Shown: positions 13,219-32,575 of the stretch, one piece after another
Position numbering within the stretch: position 1 is the first letter of the stretch
Layout of the letters: every line of letters starts with the position of its first letter
Assembly (NCBI GenBank): GCA_016210665.1
Contig: JACQTT010000015.1
Location: 1-32,575 of the forward strand
Direction of reading: 5' to 3'
DNA length: 32,575 nt
Origin: Chloroflexota bacterium
GTDB lineage: Bacteria; Chloroflexota; Dehalococcoidia; Lucifugimonadales; JACQTT01
Notes under the pieces: model-generated
The model's input: the letters and a program-made list of their open reading frames with translations, nothing else
Database searches by the model: none
Told to the model about the DNA's origin: nothing
Position numbers and translations under genes: made by a program

Positions 13219-14745
13219 TTACGCTTCACCAGAACTCCATAATCGGCAAAATCCTATTAGAATCTGGTTTACTTGATCTTGGTGCTCTTTAACGGTAATC
13301 GTCTCGGAGCCGTCTGCTCGGGCAAGTTCTAAAGCCGCAGTTTCAGCTATATACAAGTCATGCCCTTTCCATTCTTTGTAGAGGGGGAATGTTTTGTTTA
13401 TTATGAGCAATCTTTGTTGCTTGTTATCCTCCCAAGTACTCCTAATTTGAGAATCTAGGACTCTTAGCTCCCATGGAGGCATGCTACCTAAACGCTTAAG
13501 CCTTCCGACGCCGCCGGGAGGAGCCGGCGTTTTTGGATTCTTTGGGATGTGTGTGCCATCAGTACCGGGGACTCCGTCACTTTTACCATTACCTGTCTGC
13601 GGCGGTTTCCGCCCTCTACCTTCCCCCAAAGAGCTTAGGTTCCCGTGCTCTTCGGCTATTGTCTCAATGGCTTTTGCCATAACCCGGCGGACGTCATTCA
13701 GCCTCTTCCTTTCTTCTCTATTAACCGTATCTTCATCAGCTTTATTCAGCAGCTCTTTGATATGGGGATCTAGGACGCTCTTAAGGATCATCTCTACTTG
13801 CTGCCATTCGCTGGACTCTCTATCGAAGTCAGTCTTGTTTGGTAAAACAGGTACACCTTCTACTTTCTTACTAGGCATTTCTACCTCTCCGATGAGGGTG
13901 TTCAAAGACTGTTTGTAAGACGGGCCAGGATGTCCGAAGAATTCACCATCACATATCAAGCGGCCCTTCCTAAGCAGACGCATACCTCCTCGAATTGGCA
14001 AACCACCTTTGCTGCTATGGTCTCTCTTCAGCCGCCCAATCCAGCCCGTTAACCGCAATCCAGAAGAAGTTTTCTTATCAAAGGTCTCTTGATGAAAAGC
14101 CTCGTACAAAGGGAGTTTAAACGGTTCAATCGTCTCTTTGTTCATCGTGATAGATATCTTACCCTCCGCCAATAGCTTTCTAAATACATTTCCCAGATGG
14201 AGTTTAAGTTTTGCTGAATTCTGGCGCCGAGGATGGAGCTTCCGAATTTCGAACTTACAATACCCCTTTCCAAATAGGTCTTTAGTACTCTTATTGGGGA
14301 TCACATCGTACTCTTTCTCTCCCGATGACACATCGCTCCAGTGATCGTCCTGAAGCTCCCAAACAATCTCTTCATCCCACCTTTTTGTCTTCACAATCCA
14401 GGCATCACCTATGTAGCCCATAGCCCCTTTGCCGCCTTGACCGTATTCACCTATATGATCAGCCTTGTTGCTTTTCCCCCATGCCAGCCAGTCTTGTAAC
14501 TCCTGTGGTCCCATACCCAGGCCACCACGATTCTCTACCACTATTTCATCCTTTTTGATTTCTATGTCTATATACAAGTGGTCGCCACCTTGTTTGCCAT
14601 CAAATTCATCAACCGCATTATCAACCAGCTCAAAAACGGCTTCTGCTAGACCTCGGTAGTTATACATAGAGGTTTTTACTAACCCCCGGGTCAACTTTTC
14701 CCTAATTCTTATAGCAGGCGGCATGTTACCTGGTACAGAAATCAT
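13219..14745 (-). CDS. GHKL-superfamily (Hsp90/MutL/MORC-like) ATPase, function unknown
   Basis: N-box-like AEAVFELVDNAVDEFDG, G1-like VVENRGGLGM, G2-like GEYGQGGKGAMGYIGDAW; strong AGGAGGT RBS before ATG at 14745. Confidence 0.8.
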   Translation of the reverse strand: MISVPGNMPPAIRIREKLTRGLVKTSMYNYRGLAEAVFELVDNAVDEFDGKQGGDHLYIDIEIKKDEIVVENRGGLGMGPQELQDWLAWGKSNKADHIGEYGQGGKGAMGYIGDAWIVKTKRWDEEIVWELQDDHWSDVSSGEKEYDVIPNKSTKDLFGKGYCKFEIRKLHPRRQNSAKLKLHLGNVFRKLLAEGKISITMNKETIEPFKLPLYEAFHQETFDKKTSSGLRLTGWIGRLKRDHSSKGGLPIRGGMRLLRKGRLICDGEFFGHPGPSYKQSLNTLIGEVEMPSKKVEGVPVLPNKTDFDRESSEWQQVEMILKSVLDPHIKELLNKADEDTVNREERKRLNDVRRVMAKAIETIAEEHGNLSSLGEGRGRKPPQTGNGKSDGVPGTDGTHIPKNPKTPAPPGGVGRLKRLGSMPPWELRVLDSQIRSTWEDNKQQRLLIINKTFPLYKEWKGHDLYIAETAALELARADGSETITVKEHQDQVNQILIGFCRLWSSGEA

Positions 14746-14751
14746 TCTCTA

Positions 14752-15300
14752 TTACCTCCTCGCCCTACTCTTAGTCCGTGTTCGCTTGCTGCGCTTAACT
14801 TTTCTTATACCTGCGTTTGATACACTTGTTGGATACCATTGTCTTAGACCATACACGCCACGCTTTGGTCTTAAGAACCTTGGGTCTTTATATATGTGGG
14901 CAACTAAGTTATTGCCAGGGTCTTTCCCAGGTATTATTACACCCCTTGCCACCAGCGCTTTTGTTAAGTCTATGTAGTGATATTCTTTGCCTTCTTGAGA
15001 TAAAAACAGATGAACTGCATCTGCCAGAGAAGCTCCTAAAGAAGTAGAGGGTTTGCCACTGGGTATCTCTTGTTTCCCGCCGGCTCCATCCAAGGCAAAC
15101 TCTACTGGTACCCCCTCTAAAGTCAAAAGGGCCTGAATGTGACGTAGTAGCGCTTCTAGGGTGTCTTTCTCATTCTCTAACTCGGTCAGACGCCCGGCCA
15201 TCTCCGTTCTCACTACCTCTATTTTGGTACAGACCGCGCTCAATTTAGTTGAGACGGCACTTAACTCACTTCTTAGTGCTTTCACAAACTGACTTTCCAT
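14752..15300 (-). CDS. coiled-coil protein with C-terminal winged-helix (HARE-HTH-like) domain and basic tail
   Basis: Start at MESQF (GAAGGG RBS) rather than the track's TTG at 15336; heptad-like N-terminus; SLADAVHLFLSQEGKEYHYIDLTKALVARGVIIPGKDPGNNLVAHIYKDPRFLRPKRGVYGL wHTH-like; KRSKRTRTKSRARR tail. Confidence 0.7.
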   Translation of the reverse strand: MESQFVKALRSELSAVSTKLSAVCTKIEVVRTEMAGRLTELENEKDTLEALLRHIQALLTLEGVPVEFALDGAGGKQEIPSGKPSTSLGASLADAVHLFLSQEGKEYHYIDLTKALVARGVIIPGKDPGNNLVAHIYKDPRFLRPKRGVYGLRQWYPTSVSNAGIRKVKRSKRTRTKSRARR

Positions 15301-15341
15301 TGGTTTCCCTTCTAACGTTATGTTATTAATCACCAAGGTCT

Positions 15342-15370
15342 ATTATACACTCTGTAATTAATCTTGTCAA
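15342..15370 (-). promoter_or_regulatory. consensus sigma70-type promoter of the wHTH/GHKL cassette
   Basis: Reverse strand TTGACA (15370-15365), 17 bp spacer, TATAAT (15347-15342). Confidence 0.8.
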
Positions 15371-21567: not shown

Positions 21568-22962
21568 ATGGCTACTAGGTATGCTCTCAGGCCATATCAG
21601 GTGGAGATAGGAAGACGTATTCTGGATAGCATTATCCACCACCGGGGCCTCGCCTTTTCGGTGGAGATAGCCCGCCAGGGTGGCAAGAACGAGCTATCGG
21701 CTCAGATGGAGATGCTTCTCCTCACCCTCTTTATCCAGAGCGGTGGCAACCTGGTGAAGGCTGCGCCTACCTTTATACCCCAGTGCCTCATAAGCATGAT
21801 GCGACTCAAGGAGCGGCTTAACGATGCGGGCTTCGGTGGCTTCTGGAGTTCTCAGGCTGGATACATTATTCAGGTAGGCCAGGCTCGCCAACTCTTTTTC
21901 AGCGCCGAGAACTCGGCCAACGTGGTTGGAGCAACTGCCCACATCCTCCTGGAGATAGACGAGGCTCAGGACGTGGAGAAGGAGAAGTATTATAAGGAGT
22001 TCCGACCGATGGGAGCCTCTACCAATGTGACCTCGGTACTCTACGGAACGCCCTGGAACGCCTTTTCCCTGTTGGAGGAGGTGAAGCAGACCAACCTGGA
22101 GCTAGAACGCAAGGACGGTATCCGGCGCCACTTCTCTTTCGATTGGCAAGAGGTGGCTCGTTACAATCCCGAATACCAACGCTATGTAGTGGCGGAAAGA
22201 GAGCGCCTGGGGGAGGACCATCCTCTCTTTCGTACCCAGTACATGCTTTTGCCCTTGCAAGGAGGCGGTGGTTTCCTATCTGTGCAGCAGATAGCTCGGA
22301 TGGGAGGCTTCCATTCCCGCCAGGCCCGTCCATCGCTTGGAAAGACGTACGTGGCCGGTGTTGACATAGCCGGTCAGGGTGAGGAGGGAGAGGGCATCTT
22401 CTCTCTTCCTGGAACAGGCTCAAGGCGGGGACGCGACTCCACTGTCGTTACTATCGCTGAGCTAGACTTTTCGGCCTGTGAGGAGTTTGTTAGAGAGCCA
22501 GCTGTAAAGGTAGTGGAGCACTATTGCTGGACTGGAGAGAGCCATGCTTCTTTGTATGCCCAGCTAGTGGATATTTTGAAGAGCGTGTGGCGTTGCCGTC
22601 GAGTAGTTGTGGACTCTACTGGTCTGGGAGAGGGAGTCGCCAGCTTTCTAGAGAAGGCCCTGGGTGCCTCTGTAGTAGCACCATTCAAGTTTACTGCCCA
22701 GAGCAAGTCTGACTTAGCGTATGAGTTGCTGGCGGCGGTGAACTCGGGACGGCTAAAGGTTTACGGGTCTGATGGCTCCTTTGAGTACCAGGAGTTCTGG
22801 CGGCAGATGGAGCTAGCCAAGGCTCACTATCGGCCTAATAAGACCATGAACTTCTATGTGGACCCTTCTCAGGGCCACGACGATTTCATGATGAGCCTGG
22901 CTCTGGTAGTCAAGGCATCGGGGTATCTGCCACGGGTAGCGGTAGGTCGCCTAAGAGATTAG
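21568..22962 (+). CDS. phage terminase large subunit (ATPase + nuclease)
   Basis: EIARQGGKNELSA (Walker A-like), AHILLEIDEAQDV (Walker B), VAGVDIAGQ...RDSTVVTIAEL and GHDDFMMSLAL (RNaseH-like nuclease motifs). Confidence 0.88.
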   Translation: MATRYALRPYQVEIGRRILDSIIHHRGLAFSVEIARQGGKNELSAQMEMLLLTLFIQSGGNLVKAAPTFIPQCLISMMRLKERLNDAGFGGFWSSQAGYIIQVGQARQLFFSAENSANVVGATAHILLEIDEAQDVEKEKYYKEFRPMGASTNVTSVLYGTPWNAFSLLEEVKQTNLELERKDGIRRHFSFDWQEVARYNPEYQRYVVAERERLGEDHPLFRTQYMLLPLQGGGGFLSVQQIARMGGFHSRQARPSLGKTYVAGVDIAGQGEEGEGIFSLPGTGSRRGRDSTVVTIAELDFSACEEFVREPAVKVVEHYCWTGESHASLYAQLVDILKSVWRCRRVVVDSTGLGEGVASFLEKALGASVVAPFKFTAQSKSDLAYELLAAVNSGRLKVYGSDGSFEYQEFWRQMELAKAHYRPNKTMNFYVDPSQGHDDFMMSLALVVKASGYLPRVAVGRLRD

Positions 22963-23071
22963 GGTAGTTTATGTATGCCCAAGTTAGGGAACAAGTGCGG
23001 ACAAGCTTGGCAAGGAGATGCCATGAATGGTGAGCCGGAACAGAGAGAATTGCTTTTGGAGGGGATTCGCC

Positions 23072-23377
23072 ATGACTCGACGCAAGGGAATGCCGTTAAT
23101 CGATGCGCTGCCAGAGTACTATCCTTACAGAGACAATGGATGCGAGGTTTCACCCTCTTGCCTGGCCTGTCCCCTGCCCAAGTGTAGATATGACGACCCC
23201 GGTTGGATACAGCGGGAGGCTCGTGAGAAGCGAGACGGAGAGGTTCTAAAGGTTCGTCATAGAGATAGAAAGACGGTGCACCAACTGGCTAAGGAGTTCG
23301 GAATCAGCCAGCGCACCGTCCACCGTATTCTTAGCAGGGCCGGCAATGGCAACGGAACGAATGTGTTTCGAAGTTGA
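23072..23377 (+). CDS. small protein with N-terminal Cys cluster and C-terminal HTH
   Basis: Start MTRRKGMPLIDALPEYYPY with GGAGGGG RBS; CEVSPSCLACPLPKC; TVHQLAKEFGISQRTVHRILSRAG HTH. Confidence 0.65.
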   Translation: MTRRKGMPLIDALPEYYPYRDNGCEVSPSCLACPLPKCRYDDPGWIQREAREKRDGEVLKVRHRDRKTVHQLAKEFGISQRTVHRILSRAGNGNGTNVFRS

Positions 23378-23387
23378 AGGAGTGCAG

Positions 23388-24737
23388 ATGAATACATTAT
23401 CTATACCATCTATTCCCCAACAAATTTCTAGAAGGGATCTGGACCGCCTTAGGGCTTATCGCGAGAACCTGGACTTTTACAATGGAATTCAGTGGCAAGG
23501 TATAGGTAGGCGAGGGGAGCGGCGACTGATCTTTAACTATGCAAAGACCTTTATAGATAAGCTAGCATCCTATTTAATGTCTGGTGTTGAGGTAGTAATA
23601 GAGCCTCAGGATACCTCTGAGGAGTCTGGGGAACAGGCGCGGAGGGCACAAGAGGCCCTGCACCGTGTTTATGATGTCAACGGCCTGGAACAGCTAGATT
23701 TCGAAACAGAGCTGGACGCCTCTATTTTGGGGGACGGTTGCTATAAGGTAACCTGGGATCCCCATAGCCAACAGGTGCGAGTAACATCGCCCGATGTGCA
23801 GGGCATATACGCCTGGTGGGTTGGAGACGACCCCTCTCGCGTTTGGCGGATCGCCAGTAGCTACAAGCTCTCATGGGAAGAGGCACAGATGATATACGAC
23901 ATCGCCATTCCCTCCACGGAACAGTTACATCAACAGGGTGTCACTATCGTTGAGGTGTGGTCAGAGACCTCTTTCCAGCTCTGGCTTGGTTCTACCAGCT
24001 CACCTGGAGGCGGGGGCTCGCTCCTCCAGGAGCGAGCTAACCCCTATGGCTTTATCCCGTTTATCCCCTTTCCTAACCTACGAGAGCCCAAGAAGTTCTG
24101 GGGACAGAGCGACCTGGCGCTCCTAAAAGAGCCTTCTAGAGAGCTGAACAGGGCACTTTCCCAATTATCCATGATACTGGAGCTTTCTGGTAACCCTATT
24201 GCTGTGCTGGAGGGGGTGCATGAGGCCCAGGACATAGCCGTGCAGCCGGGCGCAGTGTGGGAGTTACCAGAGCAAGCACGGGCCTACCTCCTCGATCTTC
24301 TTCAAGGCGGAGGTATCAAGCTGCATATAGACTTTATTGACCTTGTGTATCGTGCCCTCCATGATCTGTCGGAAGCCCCCCGAACTGCTTTTGGCGATAA
24401 CCCTCGAAACCTCTCGGGCGTGGCCCTGGAGATGGAGATGCATCCTCTGCTCCAGCGGGTACGTCGCAAGCGCCTCATAAGGACGGCGGTGTACAAACAG
24501 CGAAACGAGATGATCCTGCGTATCCTGGAGGAAAAGACTGGAGTGCGCTATCTGCCGGTGCGGCAGCGTTTGATGTGGGGACAGCTACTGCCCCAGGACC
24601 GTGGCCGACTAGTGCGGGATGAGCAGATACTGGTAGAGTCGGGGGTTCACAGTCGGCGGCGTGCTATGGAGGAGCTTGGGGTGGGTAACCCAGAGGCGGA
24701 GTGGGCCCGCATTAAGGAGGAGGGGGGAATAGGATAG
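23388..24737 (+). CDS. phage portal protein (SPP1 gp6-like)
   Basis: Start MNTLSIPS with AAGGAG RBS (track start 23346 upstream); RAYRENLDFYNGIQWQGIGRRGERRLIFNYAKTFIDKLASYLMSGVEVV...LDASILGDGCYKVTWDP; SDLALLKEPSRELNRALSQLSMILELSGNPIAV. Confidence 0.85.
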   Translation: MNTLSIPSIPQQISRRDLDRLRAYRENLDFYNGIQWQGIGRRGERRLIFNYAKTFIDKLASYLMSGVEVVIEPQDTSEESGEQARRAQEALHRVYDVNGLEQLDFETELDASILGDGCYKVTWDPHSQQVRVTSPDVQGIYAWWVGDDPSRVWRIASSYKLSWEEAQMIYDIAIPSTEQLHQQGVTIVEVWSETSFQLWLGSTSSPGGGGSLLQERANPYGFIPFIPFPNLREPKKFWGQSDLALLKEPSRELNRALSQLSMILELSGNPIAVLEGVHEAQDIAVQPGAVWELPEQARAYLLDLLQGGGIKLHIDFIDLVYRALHDLSEAPRTAFGDNPRNLSGVALEMEMHPLLQRVRRKRLIRTAVYKQRNEMILRILEEKTGVRYLPVRQRLMWGQLLPQDRGRLVRDEQILVESGVHSRRRAMEELGVGNPEAEWARIKEEGGIG

Positions 24738-25075: not shown

Positions 25076-25211
25076 GTCGGTCAGAGTCTGGGGAAGTATT
25101 TTGTGGCATCTCAGAGATTTGAGGATGCAGCACCAGACGCGTAAGGCAAGCGTGAGGGGGAGGTGTCAGGAGATTGATAGTGCTGGAAATTACCAGAGCA
25201 GGTAAGATGGG

Positions 25212-28200
25212 ATGAATAGAAAATCTTTGGCCTATTCAGGTATTTTATTCCTCGCGGTAGTCTTTGTTTATACTTTACTAAGCAGTGGACTAGTTCAGGG
25301 CGTTACTCAGAATGCCGACGTTGTGCTGCAGAGCGACTCCTCTCAATATGTTCTGGGTCAGTCTGTTTTTTATACTGGGAACCTAAGATTTGTCCAAGAC
25401 GAGCAAGCTACCATTCATAATGTGCGGCTCAAGGTCGGCGGACCCCAGGGCTTCGAAGTTGATTTGCCCCTGGAAGAGGGTACCTTTAACCTGTCCTCCC
25501 AGGTTCCAGGCGATTTGACAGGCACCGTCAGCTTTCAAGACTTGGACTTCGGCGAGCCTGGAGGAACGTTACCCGGCGGCACCCTGCCAGGTACCCTGCC
25601 GGGCACCTTGCCTGACGGCCAGCAGTTCAAAGGTTTGAGCAACCTGGCGAAGATAATCTACGCTATCAAGTGGACTCCTCCGGTCTTTATTGATCCGGCT
25701 CCCTCTTTTACCCTGATCCCGAATACCGATGTGCTCTTCACCATACCTCAACTGGCGGGCCCTACCGAAGAGCAGGGAACGAAGCTTCCTGCTACGGAGT
25801 TGAAATTCAGCATACCCTCTCTGGGTGCCCCTGGGGGAACTGTTTTGCCCAATGCTGACTTTGCCTTCAACATCCCCCAGGTGGCCGCCGTGTCCACCGC
25901 TCCCGCCGAGCTGCCGGACCTACCCGACACCGCCGTTGGCTTCAACATACCCCAGGTGGTTGTAACCGGTGCACCTCCTGGAGTTCTGAACTTCCCCGAT
26001 TCCAGCGCTGCTTGGGGCTCTGGCGCCACGGCCGGCGATATCCCCACCTTGTCTGTTGATGCCGCTCCCACGGGAGTGCCCAACCTGCCCGACACAACCG
26101 CTGCCTGGGGCACCGGCGCCACGGCGGGCAACATACCTGACCTGGTTGCCCTCGGGCTCGTGCCCACGGCCCCGGCTGGGGTCGAGAACCTGCCCAACTC
26201 CAGCCTCGCCTTTCCTATCCCGCTGGATCAGAGCCCCAGGGGCCTTGCCTTCGACGGCAACAACTTCTGGATGGTGGTGGATGGCTCCTCTAGGGATCAG
26301 GTCTTGAAGCTGGACGGCGATGGGAATCACATCGCCTCCTTTAGCGGGCCGAGCGCTAATCTATCTGGCATCGCCTTTCTCAACGACTTCCTGTGGGTCA
26401 ACGAGAACCAGTTCCGGTGCTTCGATGACGTGGATGGCGACTTCTCTTCGGACTACAATGAGTGCTTCCGGAGCCACAGAATCTTCAAAGTCAATCCCAG
26501 CTCGGTGCCCAGCTCGGACATTGGCTGGTCCCAGCTCAGCAGCGCCGCCATCAACACCGTGGACCAGTGGAGCGACATGGGGGGCGTTGCGGCCTCAGGC
26601 AGCGGCAGCTCGGGCACTCTCTGGGTTGCCGGCAGGTTCACCGGCCGCCTCTACAACATCGAGCAGAGCGGTAATGAAATCGCAAGCATATACACCACCG
26701 AATACCTGGAAATGGAGGCCGCGGCCTTCGATAACAATGTCATCTACACCTCCAAGAGCGGGACCATCACGGCGTGGACGACTACGGGAACCAAGATAAG
26801 CGATACGGTCACCAACCCATCCCGAGGCAACATAAGAGGCCTGGCCTTCAAGAGCGTCAGCGGCTCGCCCGTCCTCTTCTTCGCCGGCGCCACCGATAAG
26901 AAGGTTTACAAAGGATTCTTCGCCACCACGGTCACCACCAGTCCCCGGGGGCTGGCCTTCACCAAGAGCACCGACAACCCCGGCGAAGCCCTGTGGATAC
27001 TGGTGGATGGTGAACCCAAGGACAAGATTCTAAAGGTAAACCCCACCACCGGGGCGTTGATTACGGACTTTGGAACCAGCGGACAGGCCGATGCCCCCAG
27101 CGCCAAGACCGAGGGCATCACCTATTATGGTCAAAACCTGTATGTCATCGCCAACGAAGGTTTTGTGCGGAAGCTGTATAAGCTTAACCCCTCTTCCGGC
27201 GCCATCGTAACCGAGTACGACCTGGGAAGCACGGCTCAGATCTATGACGACCTGGGAGACCTGACCACGGACGGCACCAACCTGATAGCCTATGCCACCG
27301 GGTTCAACACCGTCTATGTAATTAACCCAGCCAATGGTAACAGGGAGGACATCAAGTTCCCCTGCTGCCCGCCTACCCTGAGCGGTGCCCGAGGGCTGGC
27401 CCATAACGTAGGCAGAAACATATTCTTCTTCGCCAAGGGTGGAAAACTGGGAACCCTGGCGTCTGATTTCGCCTTCCTGGAAGAGCAATCGGTTACCAAG
27501 GACACCGCCAGCGTAACCGGCATCCAAGGGCTGGTGTATAGCGGAAACCTCCTCTACGTAGCCATTGATGGGAAGATATTGAGGGGATTCCTGGCCGTTA
27601 CCGTGACCACTAACCCCAGGGGCATGGCCTTCAGCCCAACGGGTTCGACTCCGGGCCGCGCCCTGTGGATAGTGGTGGACGGCGACCCCAAGGACAAGCT
27701 CTTCAAGGTGAACCCGGACACAGGGGCCTTGCTCACGACCTTTGGCACCGGCGGGGCCGTGGACGCGCCCAGCAAAGAGATCCAGGGCGTTACCTTCCTG
27801 GGGAACAAGCTATGGATGGTCTCGAATGAGGGCTTTACCCGCAAGCTGTACAAGATAAATCCGTCCAATGGCGCAGTAGAGAACACCTTTGACCTGGGCA
27901 CTACAGCCCAGATCTTCGGCGACCTGGGGGATATCACCAACGATGGCACCAATCTCGTGGTCCATGAGAGGAACAACAACGTCGTCTATTTCCTAGATAC
28001 CACTGGCGTGAAGACCGGGCTGGAGATGAAGTTCCCCTGCTGTCCCTCCTTCTTCGGTGCCAAGGGGTTGGCCTTCAACAGCGGACGCAGCACCTACTTT
28101 GCTGCCAGCGCTGGCAAAGTGGCGACTTACAGCTCCTCCTTCGATTTCCTGGAAGAGGTTACAGCAAAGCAGGACGGCACCAACATCACTGGTATCGAGG

Positions 28201-31200
28201 GGATGGTATTTGATGGAGACCTCTTGTATATCTCCCGCAGCGGAAAGGTGAGCAAGGGCTTCCTGGCTACAACCGCCACCGTGGAGCCAAAGGGCATAGC
28301 CTTCACCTCGGCGGCTACTGCCGCAGGAAAGGCCCTGTGGATACTGGTGAATGGCGAGCCCAAGGACAAGCTCCTCAAGGTGGACCCGGACACGGGGCTA
28401 CTTAACGCAGCCTTCGGTTCCAGCGGCTCTGTGGACGCGCCCAGCAAGAATACCGAGGGAATTACCTTCCTGAACACGGGCGTTGCCAACACCAGCTTCC
28501 TGTGGATCATCGGCAACGAGGGATTTGAAAGGAAGTTGTACAAGGTGAATGTAAGCAACGGCAATGTTGCGGATACCTTTAGCCTGGGCACTACAGCCCA
28601 GATCTTCGACGACCTGGGGGGCATCACCAACGACGGCACCAACCTGATAGTCTATACCCGCGGCTTCAACCGCTTCATCGTGATAGACCCATCCAACGCC
28701 TCCCAGGTGAGCAGCCAGTTTGTAGGCGGCCCCAGCTTCGAGGGTGGCCGAGGGCTGGCCCGCCACGCCGGTCGGAGCCAGTTCTTCGTCGGCAGGTCTG
28801 CCAAGCTGGCCCGCTTCAACTCCGAGTTTCAGTTCCTTCAGGAGCAGACGGTAACCGAGGCGGCTTCGTCCATCGCCGGCATAGAGGGGTTGGATTTCGA
28901 CGGCGACGTGCTCTACGTTGCCCGCTTCCAGAGTGGCGTCGGCAAGGTGAGCAAGGGCGCTCTGCGCCTCACTGTGACCACCAATCCCAGAGGCATGGCC
29001 TTCACCCCGACGGGAACTCTAATCAGCGGCATCAACGTCGGCAGGGCCTTGTGGGTGCTGGTGGACGGCGATCCCTTTGACAAGCTGCTGAAGATAGACC
29101 CAGATACCGGGGCGTTGATTACCACTTTTGCCACGGACGGCGCCAAGGACACCCCCAGCGGCAACACCGAGGGCATTACCTTCTTCCAGAACGCATTGTG
29201 GGTCGTGGCTAACGAGCCCAACGGGGTGAAGCTGTTCAAGGTCAAGGCGACGGACGGGTCTGTGCAGGAGACGATAAACCTGAGCCAGTGCCCCAGCCTG
29301 TGTTCGGTCTTCGACCCTGTGGGTGACATAAGCAATGACGGCACAAACCTGTTAGTCACCATGAATGGTTTTATGAAGGTTGTGACGCTGAACACCGATG
29401 GTACCAAGGTGTCGGATCAGTTCCCTGCGCCCGTTCTTAACGGGGCTAACGGCCTTGCCTTCCGGTCTGCTAAATCCCAGCTCTTCTTTGCCAAAGGCTC
29501 TACTATCGCTCAGTTCGCCCTAGAAGGGGACCAGCTATTCTTTGCCGACGAGTTTGCCACCTCCCTGACGGGGATTCAGGGGCTTACCTTTGTAGGTGAC
29601 GTGCTGTACATAGGGCACACGGGATCCGGTAAGGTCTCCAAGGCGTCAATTCCATCGGATATATCAAATGTCCCTCAGGGGTTGGCCTACGACAGCGGAG
29701 CCAATGAGCTCTACGTCCTGGTGGATGGGAAGGCGGCCGACCATATCATCGTGATGAACCCTACCAATGGCAACGTCATACGGGACTTTCCGGCGACTGA
29801 TGAGGACTCCTTCAGCATCACCTTCCTGAATGGTTTTGTTTACGTTGGTGTCCGGGACGACGACTTTGGCCAGACGACAGCCGCAAAATTCGTGAAGCTC
29901 AACCCTGCCAATGGCAACCTAGTGGCTACCATAACTCCTGGTGCGATCCCCTTTGGCAATCCTCCTACGGGGCTGAGCAACGACGGCACCTCTCTGGTCG
30001 CTTTGATGGGGCAGGGGCCCTCGGAGGTCCGCTTCCTGGATCCCTCCGACGGGTCTCAGGAGGAGCAGGTAGGCTTCTTCGACCCCCAGGGCGGCTTTGT
30101 ACCCAGTGAGATGCAGGCACTGGCCCTCCGCTTGGCGCCTACAAGAAACTTCTTCGCCTTCAAGGGCAACCAGGTCTTCCGCTTTGACGAGGGAGGCAGG
30201 AAGATTGCCGAAATCAGCATCTCTACTGCCAACTTCGGCAATGTCCAGGGAGCCACCTTCGTGGGGAATCTTCTCTACATGGCGGAGGCCCAGGGGAAGA
30301 CCATCCATGCGGCCCTTATACCCGCGCCGACGACGGTAATAACGAAGAGCCCGAAGGGGATGGCGACAGATGGCACCAGCCTCTACGTCGTGGTGGATGG
30401 CAGCCCCAAGGACAAGATAATGAAGCTGAACGCCACCACGGGCGCCCTGGTGACCTCCTTTGGCTCCCAGGGCTCCGTTGATGCCCCTGGCACGGATACC
30501 GATGCCCTGGCCTTCCACGGAGGCTTCCTCTACGCCGTGACCAACGACGTGAAGAGTGTCGAGGTGCAGCCCCAGGTCTTCCAGCAGCAGGTCTTTCCCG
30601 TCATTTCCAAGCTCGATGCTACTACAGGTGCGGAGCAACTGAAGTTCAAGATCCAGTGGCAGCCTCCAGGCCAGCAGACCCAGAGGCTCAATGACACGAT
30701 TGGAGCCCTGGCCAGCGATGGCACGTTCCTCTACGCCGGTGTGAAGGGTGAAGGTGCGCTCCAGGGAGCCTGGTTCAAGGTGAATCCCGCTAACCCGCAG
30801 GCTGTTTCCTCTATGGTCAGCCAGTTCGCCGGAAAGTTTCCCTTCATGGGCAGTTTCCAGGCCATGGAGCTTACCCTGGGCACCGACTTCCCTGCTGACC
30901 GGCAGTTGGTCGCCAGCGACGGCAGTGGCATCGCCCGCTTCAACAAGACTACAGGCGTGATGTTCGACCGGTACGAGGAAGGCAAGAATATCAGGGGTAT
31001 GGCCTATATCGGCCTGAGGCTCTTCCTTGCTGATGCCGCCAGTGACAGCATCCTGGGGACGGCGCTGCCTGAGAAGACGATAGAGCTTACCAATGTGGGG
31101 AGCTACAGCAGCGAGCTAATAGCCGATGTGTCTGCCAGTCCTACCCAGACCGTCAAGAATGTACCGGCTCTAGCCTACAGCATCATCCGCAACCCGGATG

Positions 31201-32575
31201 TGGTGTTGAAGCTCACCAATCCGACGGCGAACTTCATATTGACTCAGACAGCCACCGACATACAGGGTCTTATAAGCGATCCAACGGCCTTGCAGGTGGA
31301 GGCGGGAATAAGGCTGCCCTTCACCAAGCTCTTGGAGGACAGGGTAACCCGGCCAGACTCCAACAACCTGTGGATTATTGGCGGACAGGCCGGGCCAGCC
31401 AACTGGCACGTCGCCTGCCAGGGCGACCTCATTTCTCAAGGCGTTCCCATTCCCTTGGCGCTCAGTTCAGCCCCTTGCTCTTGGCGCTACGCCATACCCA
31501 ACGGAGCCTCCTTTGACACCGGCGCTCGTACCCAGGGAACCCTGACGACGGTTGACCCTATCACCGTGAGTCAGGACATGGTTCTATCTTTCTTCATCTG
31601 GTATGATACGCAGCCCGATCCAAACAACGATACGAAGAAGGTTAGAATAGCCACGGTGACGCAGGACCTGCAGGGGAACGACGTTGTAGGCGCTTTCCAG
31701 GACTTTGCCCAGATCGTCGGCAAGGGGTTTGGCACCGCTCAGTCTCCTCAGGGGGCCCACTCTGCCTTCCAGTACAAAGAGGTAGACCTATCTAAGTTCA
31801 GGTTCGAGCAGGGCGTTGCTATCCCCGATATGACCCAGGTCAACATCCCTCTGGCTACTTTTGAAGGGGATCGGGTGAAGATTCAATTTGAGTTCGATAG
31901 CCAGAACGCGGTTGCCAACCAGGGCAAGGGGACGTTTATAGACGACATTGTGGTAGCTGGTGAAGGCTTCAAGACTGTGATCGGGAGCACCACGCTTCTG
32001 ACGACGCCAACGGTGTTGAATAATGTCAAGTTCTTCCGTAGCTTCAGCATACCCTTCGATCTGGCCGAGGGACTGAACGACGTGGGCGCCGAAGCCAAGC
32101 AATCCTACAATCCCTTCAAGTCAGGCTTTGATTTTGTCACCGGCTTCGTAGATCAGACGTCTCCGAGTGTGACACTAGGCGGCATTAGCGCAAACGTTAA
32201 AGTGCTTCAACAAACCCTTACAGGTACTATAGATGACGAAACCTTCCTGTCGCTGGAGGTCAGGCAGACCGACGTCTTCGGCACCAGGGTTATATCCACC
32301 CTCGCCTCTCTGCCGCAGAGCAGAACCTTCTCCGTGCCGGTGAGCCTGAACGAAGGTAGCAATACCTTCACGGGTATTGCCATAGACCGGGGTGGCCTGA
32401 CAAGGACGGCCACTCTGATTACCATAGCCGACACGGCTCTGCCTAGCGCAGTAGTTCACGTGGTCACGCTGACCAGCCAGGGCGAAGCGGTTACAGGAGA
32501 CCAGTTCTTCATTGCCGTTGCGGCCACGGACGCTGGCTCCGGCGTACAGACAGTAAAGCACATAGCTAGCAATGA
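25212..32575 (+). CDS. giant secreted repeat protein (beta-propeller-like super-repeats, jelly-roll-like and Ig-like regions), partial, runs off right edge
   Basis: Continuous frame from ATG 25212 (MNRKSLAYSGILFLAVVFVYTLLSSGLVQG signal peptide) to the last base, 2454 codons + 2 nt, no stop seen; recurring PRGxAF...ALWxxVDGxPKDK...KVNPxTGAL...; frame checked at 26220, 29640 and the end. Confidence 0.92.
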   Translation, partial: MNRKSLAYSGILFLAVVFVYTLLSSGLVQGVTQNADVVLQSDSSQYVLGQSVFYTGNLRFVQDEQATIHNVRLKVGGPQGFEVDLPLEEGTFNLSSQVPGDLTGTVSFQDLDFGEPGGTLPGGTLPGTLPGTLPDGQQFKGLSNLAKIIYAIKWTPPVFIDPAPSFTLIPNTDVLFTIPQLAGPTEEQGTKLPATELKFSIPSLGAPGGTVLPNADFAFNIPQVAAVSTAPAELPDLPDTAVGFNIPQVVVTGAPPGVLNFPDSSAAWGSGATAGDIPTLSVDAAPTGVPNLPDTTAAWGTGATAGNIPDLVALGLVPTAPAGVENLPNSSLAFPIPLDQSPRGLAFDGNNFWMVVDGSSRDQVLKLDGDGNHIASFSGPSANLSGIAFLNDFLWVNENQFRCFDDVDGDFSSDYNECFRSHRIFKVNPSSVPSSDIGWSQLSSAAINTVDQWSDMGGVAASGSGSSGTLWVAGRFTGRLYNIEQSGNEIASIYTTEYLEMEAAAFDNNVIYTSKSGTITAWTTTGTKISDTVTNPSRGNIRGLAFKSVSGSPVLFFAGATDKKVYKGFFATTVTTSPRGLAFTKSTDNPGEALWILVDGEPKDKILKVNPTTGALITDFGTSGQADAPSAKTEGITYYGQNLYVIANEGFVRKLYKLNPSSGAIVTEYDLGSTAQIYDDLGDLTTDGTNLIAYATGFNTVYVINPANGNREDIKFPCCPPTLSGARGLAHNVGRNIFFFAKGGKLGTLASDFAFLEEQSVTKDTASVTGIQGLVYSGNLLYVAIDGKILRGFLAVTVTTNPRGMAFSPTGSTPGRALWIVVDGDPKDKLFKVNPDTGALLTTFGTGGAVDAPSKEIQGVTFLGNKLWMVSNEGFTRKLYKINPSNGAVENTFDLGTTAQIFGDLGDITNDGTNLVVHERNNNVVYFLDTTGVKTGLEMKFPCCPSFFGAKGLAFNSGRSTYFAASAGKVATYSSSFDFLEEVTAKQDGTNITGIEGMVFDGDLLYISRSGKVSKGFLATTATVEPKGIAFTSAATAAGKALWILVNGEPKDKLLKVDPDTGLLNAAFGSSGSVDAPSKNTEGITFLNTGVANTSFLWIIGNEGFERKLYKVNVSNGNVADTFSLGTTAQIFDDLGGITNDGTNLIVYTRGFNRFIVIDPSNASQVSSQFVGGPSFEGGRGLARHAGRSQFFVGRSAKLARFNSEFQFLQEQTVTEAASSIAGIEGLDFDGDVLYVARFQSGVGKVSKGALRLTVTTNPRGMAFTPTGTLISGINVGRALWVLVDGDPFDKLLKIDPDTGALITTFATDGAKDTPSGNTEGITFFQNALWVVANEPNGVKLFKVKATDGSVQETINLSQCPSLCSVFDPVGDISNDGTNLLVTMNGFMKVVTLNTDGTKVSDQFPAPVLNGANGLAFRSAKSQLFFAKGSTIAQFALEGDQLFFADEFATSLTGIQGLTFVGDVLYIGHTGSGKVSKASIPSDISNVPQGLAYDSGANELYVLVDGKAADHIIVMNPTNGNVIRDFPATDEDSFSITFLNGFVYVGVRDDDFGQTTAAKFVKLNPANGNLVATITPGAIPFGNPPTGLSNDGTSLVALMGQGPSEVRFLDPSDGSQEEQVGFFDPQGGFVPSEMQALALRLAPTRNFFAFKGNQVFRFDEGGRKIAEISISTANFGNVQGATFVGNLLYMAEAQGKTIHAALIPAPTTVITKSPKGMATDGTSLYVVVDGSPKDKIMKLNATTGALVTSFGSQGSVDAPGTDTDALAFHGGFLYAVTNDVKSVEVQPQVFQQQVFPVISKLDATTGAEQLKFKIQWQPPGQQTQRLNDTIGALASDGTFLYAGVKGEGALQGAWFKVNPANPQAVSSMVSQFAGKFPFMGSFQAMELTLGTDFPADRQLVASDGSGIARFNKTTGVMFDRYEEGKNIRGMAYIGLRLFLADAASDSILGTALPEKTIELTNVGSYSSELIADVSASPTQTVKNVPALAYSIIRNPDVVLKLTNPTANFILTQTATDIQGLISDPTALQVEAGIRLPFTKLLEDRVTRPDSNNLWIIGGQAGPANWHVACQGDLISQGVPIPLALSSAPCSWRYAIPNGASFDTGARTQGTLTTVDPITVSQDMVLSFFIWYDTQPDPNNDTKKVRIATVTQDLQGNDVVGAFQDFAQIVGKGFGTAQSPQGAHSAFQYKEVDLSKFRFEQGVAIPDMTQVNIPLATFEGDRVKIQFEFDSQNAVANQGKGTFIDDIVVAGEGFKTVIGSTTLLTTPTVLNNVKFFRSFSIPFDLAEGLNDVGAEAKQSYNPFKSGFDFVTGFVDQTSPSVTLGGISANVKVLQQTLTGTIDDETFLSLEVRQTDVFGTRVISTLASLPQSRTFSVPVSLNEGSNTFTGIAIDRGGLTRTATLITIADTALPSAVVHVVTLTSQGEAVTGDQFFIAVAATDAGSGVQTVKHIASN

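Follow-up and report, generated by a model that had tools for sequence, protein, structure and literature searches.

A two-gene operon on the minus strand

The window, that is, the whole stretch of 32,575 nucleotides analysed here, comes from an uncultured Chloroflexota bacterium, and its annotation places argS, tilS and cbs as neighbours of a pair of minus-strand genes. The first of these encodes P0002, a 182-aa protein with a coiled coil, a HARE-HTH domain and a basic tail (14752..15300), and the second, after an intergenic gap of 6 nt, encodes P0001, a MORC-like GHKL ATPase of 508 aa (13219..14745); coordinates of the operon refer to the minus strand unless noted. The pair is preceded by a sigma-70 promoter, TTGACA-N17-TATAAT (15342..15370), which matches the consensus at 12 of 12 positions and is the only such site in the stretch scanned for promoters. 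Across it lie two 11-nt direct repeats, TGTTATTAATC and TGTAATTAATC, 32 nt apart and flanking the -10 box (15321..15363, no strand assigned); they are a weak candidate for an operator, in an AT-rich stretch where such a repeat may arise by chance. A Shine-Dalgarno sequence for the ATPase gene, AGGAGG (14755..14760), stands 9 nt before its ATG within the final two codons of P0002, and this overlap makes translational coupling of the two genes probable.

The base composition of the cassette is atypical. Its GC content is 46% against 53% for the whole window, and its GC and codon fit are the lowest among all window genes tested; expressed as fractions, the cassette stands at 0.46, the housekeeping genes of the window at 0.50-0.58 and the upstream spacer at 0.35. 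The first-pass annotation had described this AT-rich upstream region as well as the two-gene layout with its 6-nt gap and consensus promoter, and all of these were borne out, coordinates included. Its suggestion of a recent acquisition was not: even the nearest relatives share no more than 44-49% identity, too distant for a recent transfer, which we therefore rejected. We likewise rejected the idea that the pair is cargo of a mobile element, since the window contains no tRNA and no integrase was seen beside the pair.

In the AlphaFold model, P0002 begins with a long helix (residues 4-61; 15118..15291), a predicted coiled coil, followed by a low-confidence linker, a winged-helix domain of three helices and a two-strand wing, and a tail rich in Lys and Arg (14755..14811), which make up 11 of the last 19 residues. 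The winged helix coincides with a HARE-HTH domain (PF05066, residues 91-155; 14836..15030) scoring 28.9 bits against a Pfam cut-off of 25.9. As to the extra helix that HARE-HTH domains have within the HTH motif, the model has a 9-residue linker and no helix between residues 118 and 128. In structure comparisons RNA polymerase delta subunits come out on top, with probabilities close to 1.0 and modest E-values; delta is itself a HARE-HTH relative. The first-pass reading of a coiled-coil, winged-helix protein with a very basic tail thus stands. P0002 resembles other HARE-HTH proteins (ASXL, RNA polymerase delta and restriction-linked wHTH proteins) in its Pfam match and winged helix, and differs from them in being a standalone protein with a coiled coil, a basic tail and a GHKL neighbour, and in having no nuclease fusion. 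PADLOC matched no defence model on P0002, returning just LmuB at E=0.07 within the coiled coil. HARE-HTH has been proposed to read modified DNA, a literature prediction cited in PMC10853773 and PMC11037411.

P0001 carries a GHKL ATPase domain (HATPase_c_3, residues 33-132; 14350..14649) at 28.8 bits against a cut-off of 25. Its N-box, ELVDNAVD, keeps the catalytic Glu (E39) and the Mg-binding Asn (N43), and the glycine-rich lid, or G2, is intact (IGEYGQGGKGA). An S5-like transducer region follows (13816..14163), identified by profile and fold match to MORC3, with an invariant lysine (K304, in NKTDFD). Within it lies the MORC signature GhXhhpXXRhl of PMC2292703 (GMRLLRKGRLI, residues 254-264; 13954..13986), a motif that matched by chance in 101 of 20,000 shuffles and that deviates in two paired relatives (L055 and L063). 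The protein ends in a small alpha/beta domain, seen in the alignment and the model, with a family-conserved IINKTFPLY motif (13222..13512). PADLOC found no match for P0001.

MORC proteins silence DNA in animals and plants. A profile of 19 P0001 relatives matched human MORC3 (E=1.5e-12), MORC4 (E=3.6e-12) and MORC2 (E about 1e-5), and the eight best PDB matches of the P0001 model (pLDDT 79) are MORC3, MORC4 and MORC2, with E-values down to 2.8e-14. The TM-scores are modest (about 0.4-0.54, over about 390 columns), so P0001 shares only the ATPase core with these eukaryotic proteins; it also differs from them in having no CW zinc finger and in its bacterial two-gene arrangement. Profile-profile comparison linked it at a probability of 99.5 to two GHKL proteins of the same class that are associated with methyltransferases and helicases. 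The GHKL+S5 core anticipated for the ATPase was therefore found, and the MORC-like assignment made at first sight holds for fold, profile and profile-profile match, but not for the canonical G1 box: in this motif, one of the four of GHKL proteins, the adenine-contacting Asp of DxGxG lacks conservation at the corresponding alignment column of the family, and P0001 has Asn/Arg there (ENRGGLGM). Because this residue is missing, we rejected strict MORC membership and call P0001 MORC-like.

Conserved pairing and alternative partners

Among genome contigs a single-protein query gave no match, and relatives were recovered with an alignment query. P0001 relatives are sporadic: 6 of 250 genomes of the order have one at E<=1e-6, a close one in three cases, and the 393 genomes of the class contain 11 genes at E<=1e-20. 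With a HARE profile whose sole inputs were the window and G013 sequences, we found a HARE gene directly upstream of a P0001-type ATPase in G284, G389 and G467. The same order, HARE then ATPase, thus occurs in five genomes, the window and four other Dehalococcoidia/Chloroflexota (G013, L002/L035; G284, L024/L039; G389, L026/L055; G467, L028/L063), so homologues are not always single, as the first-pass annotation had allowed they might be. In the class sample, three genomes besides the window show this adjacency against about 0.03 expected by a hand estimate. This count, restricted to the P0001 family, is the fair test; a count of 10 pairs and its Poisson tail are inflated because HARE itself led to two of the three ATPase families. 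No nuclease, methyltransferase or helicase was recognised as an operon partner at any of the five pairs, and distant kin of P0001 (L011, L033) lie in methyltransferase-helicase cassettes (compare PMC2292703).

The pairing is not universal. Roughly half of the class's ATPase relatives have no HARE gene, HARE proteins also occur alone, and no HARE gene was seen beside the other close relatives, which come from Chloroflexota, two Actinomycetota MAGs and one Levybacteria MAG; in the nearest relative of all (L036), an assembly gap falls at the HARE position. On the ATPase tree the pairing needs four changes, no better than shuffles, so that gain and loss of the partner are indistinguishable on it, and the HARE tree is too weakly supported to order the partners in time. 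Beside HARE-less P0001-type ATPases we noted by eye genes resembling toxin-antitoxin or Abi genes, of VapBC-, HicB- and AbiE-like kinds (L038, L043, L053, L042, L052), and in Levybacteria a 585-aa coiled-coil gene without a Pfam match lies 2 nt upstream of the ATPase (L045:4209-5966).

HARE proteins of the P0002 type occur in 33 of 393 class genomes, and among the loci examined, those of six further genomes have them next to large GHKL proteins of two other families. One of these families comprises L119 and L120, with L123 and L124 related to them (E about 1e-29); the ATPases of the latter two match HATPase_c_3 at E about 0.001, below the cut-off. The other (L121, L122) carries the motifs EPVQNSxDA and GSRGQGK. 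L119-L122 were assigned to GHKL by motif reading, and L119 and L120 also through their homology to L123 and L124, Pfam alone giving L119-L122 no score. The libraries used did not recognise the family of the GHKL and HARE pairs at L100 and L106 (L121, L122), and near the start of the L121 copy there is an in-frame TAA. DNA methyltransferase genes of the N6/N4 type adjoin HARE in L123, L124 and L125 (confirmed by Pfam/PADLOC for L123 and L125), and in L123 and L124 they lie between HARE and the ATPase. Plasmid relatives of the second family sit in defence-like neighbourhoods with SIR2, DUF262, DUF4007 and PAPS-reductase genes.

In some loci without HARE, its slot directly upstream of the GHKL gene is filled by a helical protein of about 79 aa that is unrelated to HARE. 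It was found with all three ATPase families, namely at L003 (1259-1498) for the P0001 family, at L150 (1229-1465), L154, L156 (2553-2822) and L157 for the second, and at L166 (3183-3452) for the third. This protein family is apparently undescribed and has no Pfam or NCBIfam match over cut-off. No locus examined has both HARE and the ~79-aa protein, and several ATPase relatives have neither. C5 methyltransferases adjoin the ATPases of L158 and L161 and share an operon with the ATPase in L165.

The insertion site and the state of the copies were also compared. A CBS-domain gene precedes tilS in 23 of 29 relatives, and in none of the 29 is tilS followed by the cassette or by argS (1.5 kb flank examined). 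Two of the four other pairs have a broken ATPase frame, which in G013 contains several stops and frame changes and in G284 a single TAG; the frames of the L055 and L063 pairs remain open. Counting all copies, disruptions were seen in G013, G284, G341 and G021. G284 has two P0001-type ATPase genes (L024, L027), each with a single in-frame TAG, which might reflect decay, assembly error or TAG reassignment. Plasmids and phages yielded no relative of P0002 and a single remote one of P0001, which lies on a plasmid between dcm and Z1/HNH genes, and viral contigs gave only two remote ATPase matches.

A possible two-component GHKL module

P0002 and P0001 probably work as a functional pair. As an overall account we favour a two-component GHKL module, the best explanation in our judgement, in which our confidence is evenly balanced. 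In its favour are the constant gene order in five genomes, the adjacency beyond expectation, the other GHKL and methyltransferase neighbours of HARE, the slot shared with the ~79-aa protein, the C5 methyltransferases beside some HARE-less ATPases, the MORC-like fold and profile, and the cassettes of distant P0001 kin. Against it stand the missing G1 Asp, the five pairs at which no nuclease, methyltransferase or helicase partner was seen, the negative PADLOC result, the HARE proteins that occur alone and the ATPase relatives that have neither partner. We infer that HARE-HTH would be an exchangeable DNA reader, probably of modification state, that aims a GHKL clamp, most likely against invading DNA. 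A tentative mechanism, one we consider possible rather than probable, would run as follows. P0002 would oligomerise through its coiled coil and thereby gather HARE-HTH domains, which together with the basic tail would bind DNA chosen by sequence or, probably, by modification state. P0001, recruited by P0002 in a physical complex, would dimerise upon nucleotide binding and close on the DNA, and the closed ATPase might compact or block the invading molecule, or a nuclease might be recruited as the outcome. The pair could act by itself or together with restriction or modification enzymes whose genes lie elsewhere in the genome. Since the host carries at least five genes for N6/N4 methyltransferases, its own DNA is probably marked.

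Defence, which the first-pass annotation had put forward, seems to us a rather likely role. In support of this idea, P0002-type HARE genes also have DNA methyltransferases and further GHKL families as partners; on the other hand, no defence genes flank the pair in the window, PADLOC matched neither protein, and about half of the class ATPase relatives stand without HARE. The patchy occurrence and repeated breakage would suit an accessory, defence-type gene. Prokaryotic MORC and paraMORC ATPases lie in restriction-modification operons (Iyer, Abhiman and Aravind 2008, PMC2292703), typically with an SFII helicase, nuclease or methyltransferase and in about 70% of cases with a helicase (PMC2292703). 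They share with P0001 the GHKL and S5 fold, the N-box Glu and Asn, the lid, the S5 lysine, the GhXhhpXXRhl motif and a sporadic distribution, whereas the window pair adjoins no helicase, nuclease or methyltransferase, has no G1 Asp and has a HARE-HTH partner instead. A GHKL domain also serves phage defence in the Shedu protein VcSduA of V. cholerae (PMC12137116), but there it is fused with a nuclease in one protein, and no nuclease domain was found in the window pair. We found no paper that names HARE-HTH and GHKL together in the literature searched, which excludes the original HARE-HTH paper.

Other explanations have to be weighed against such a module. P0002 might be a local winged-helix regulator of its own operon, with the ATPase working alone. 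Its first position in the operon, behind a strong promoter flanked by the 11-nt repeats, the closeness of its fold to RNA polymerase delta and the many ATPase relatives without HARE would all fit a regulator. However, a methyltransferase gene intervenes between HARE and ATPase in L123 and L124, a non-HTH protein of about 79 aa takes the place of HARE in each of the three ATPase families, and most paired HARE proteins keep the coiled coil and the basic tail; we consider the regulator unlikely. The association of related ATPases with methyltransferases, helicases and nucleases, together with the disrupted copies in four genomes, could instead mean that the pair is a functionless remnant, orphaned or decaying, of a larger GHKL restriction-modification cassette. 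This we regard as quite improbable, because the window copy is unbroken and has both a perfect promoter and a Shine-Dalgarno sequence, two further ATPase frames are open, and the minimal form of two genes recurs at all five loci, a uniformity that suggests completeness.

A routine role in chromosome structure, as a host chromatin or nucleoid factor, would accord with a MORC-like ATPase that has a DNA-binding partner and housekeeping flanks. The patchy distribution, atypical composition and broken copies argue against it, as does the cassette's absence from the cbs-tilS site in 29 relatives, and we hold this already disfavoured reading to be very unlikely.

Returning to the two-component module, it would be tempting to go further and regard HARE-HTH and the ~79-aa protein as interchangeable targeting subunits of a nuclease-less GHKL anti-invader family, with the window pair as its minimal form and as the bacterial equivalent of the eukaryotic coupling between DNA-mark reading and MORC-type silencing. 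This extension is speculative, and we think it doubtful. The two-component module bears on how prokaryotic MORC-like ATPases are targeted to DNA and on whether they can act without a nuclease; with only two genes, one of them for a candidate reader of DNA marks, it offers a small, cloneable test case. It would also link HARE-HTH and MORC, both parts of eukaryotic chromatin, within one bacterial operon.

Other genes in the window

Between recA and a giant open reading frame, the plus strand encodes a terminase large subunit and portal-like genes (21568-24737; PHROGs, portal E=6e-30), near which no further phage gene was recognised by eye. The giant frame itself (25206-32573, plus strand) extends over at least 2456 codons and runs off the window; it begins with an N-terminal signal-like stretch and contains repeated segments resembling beta-propeller blades.
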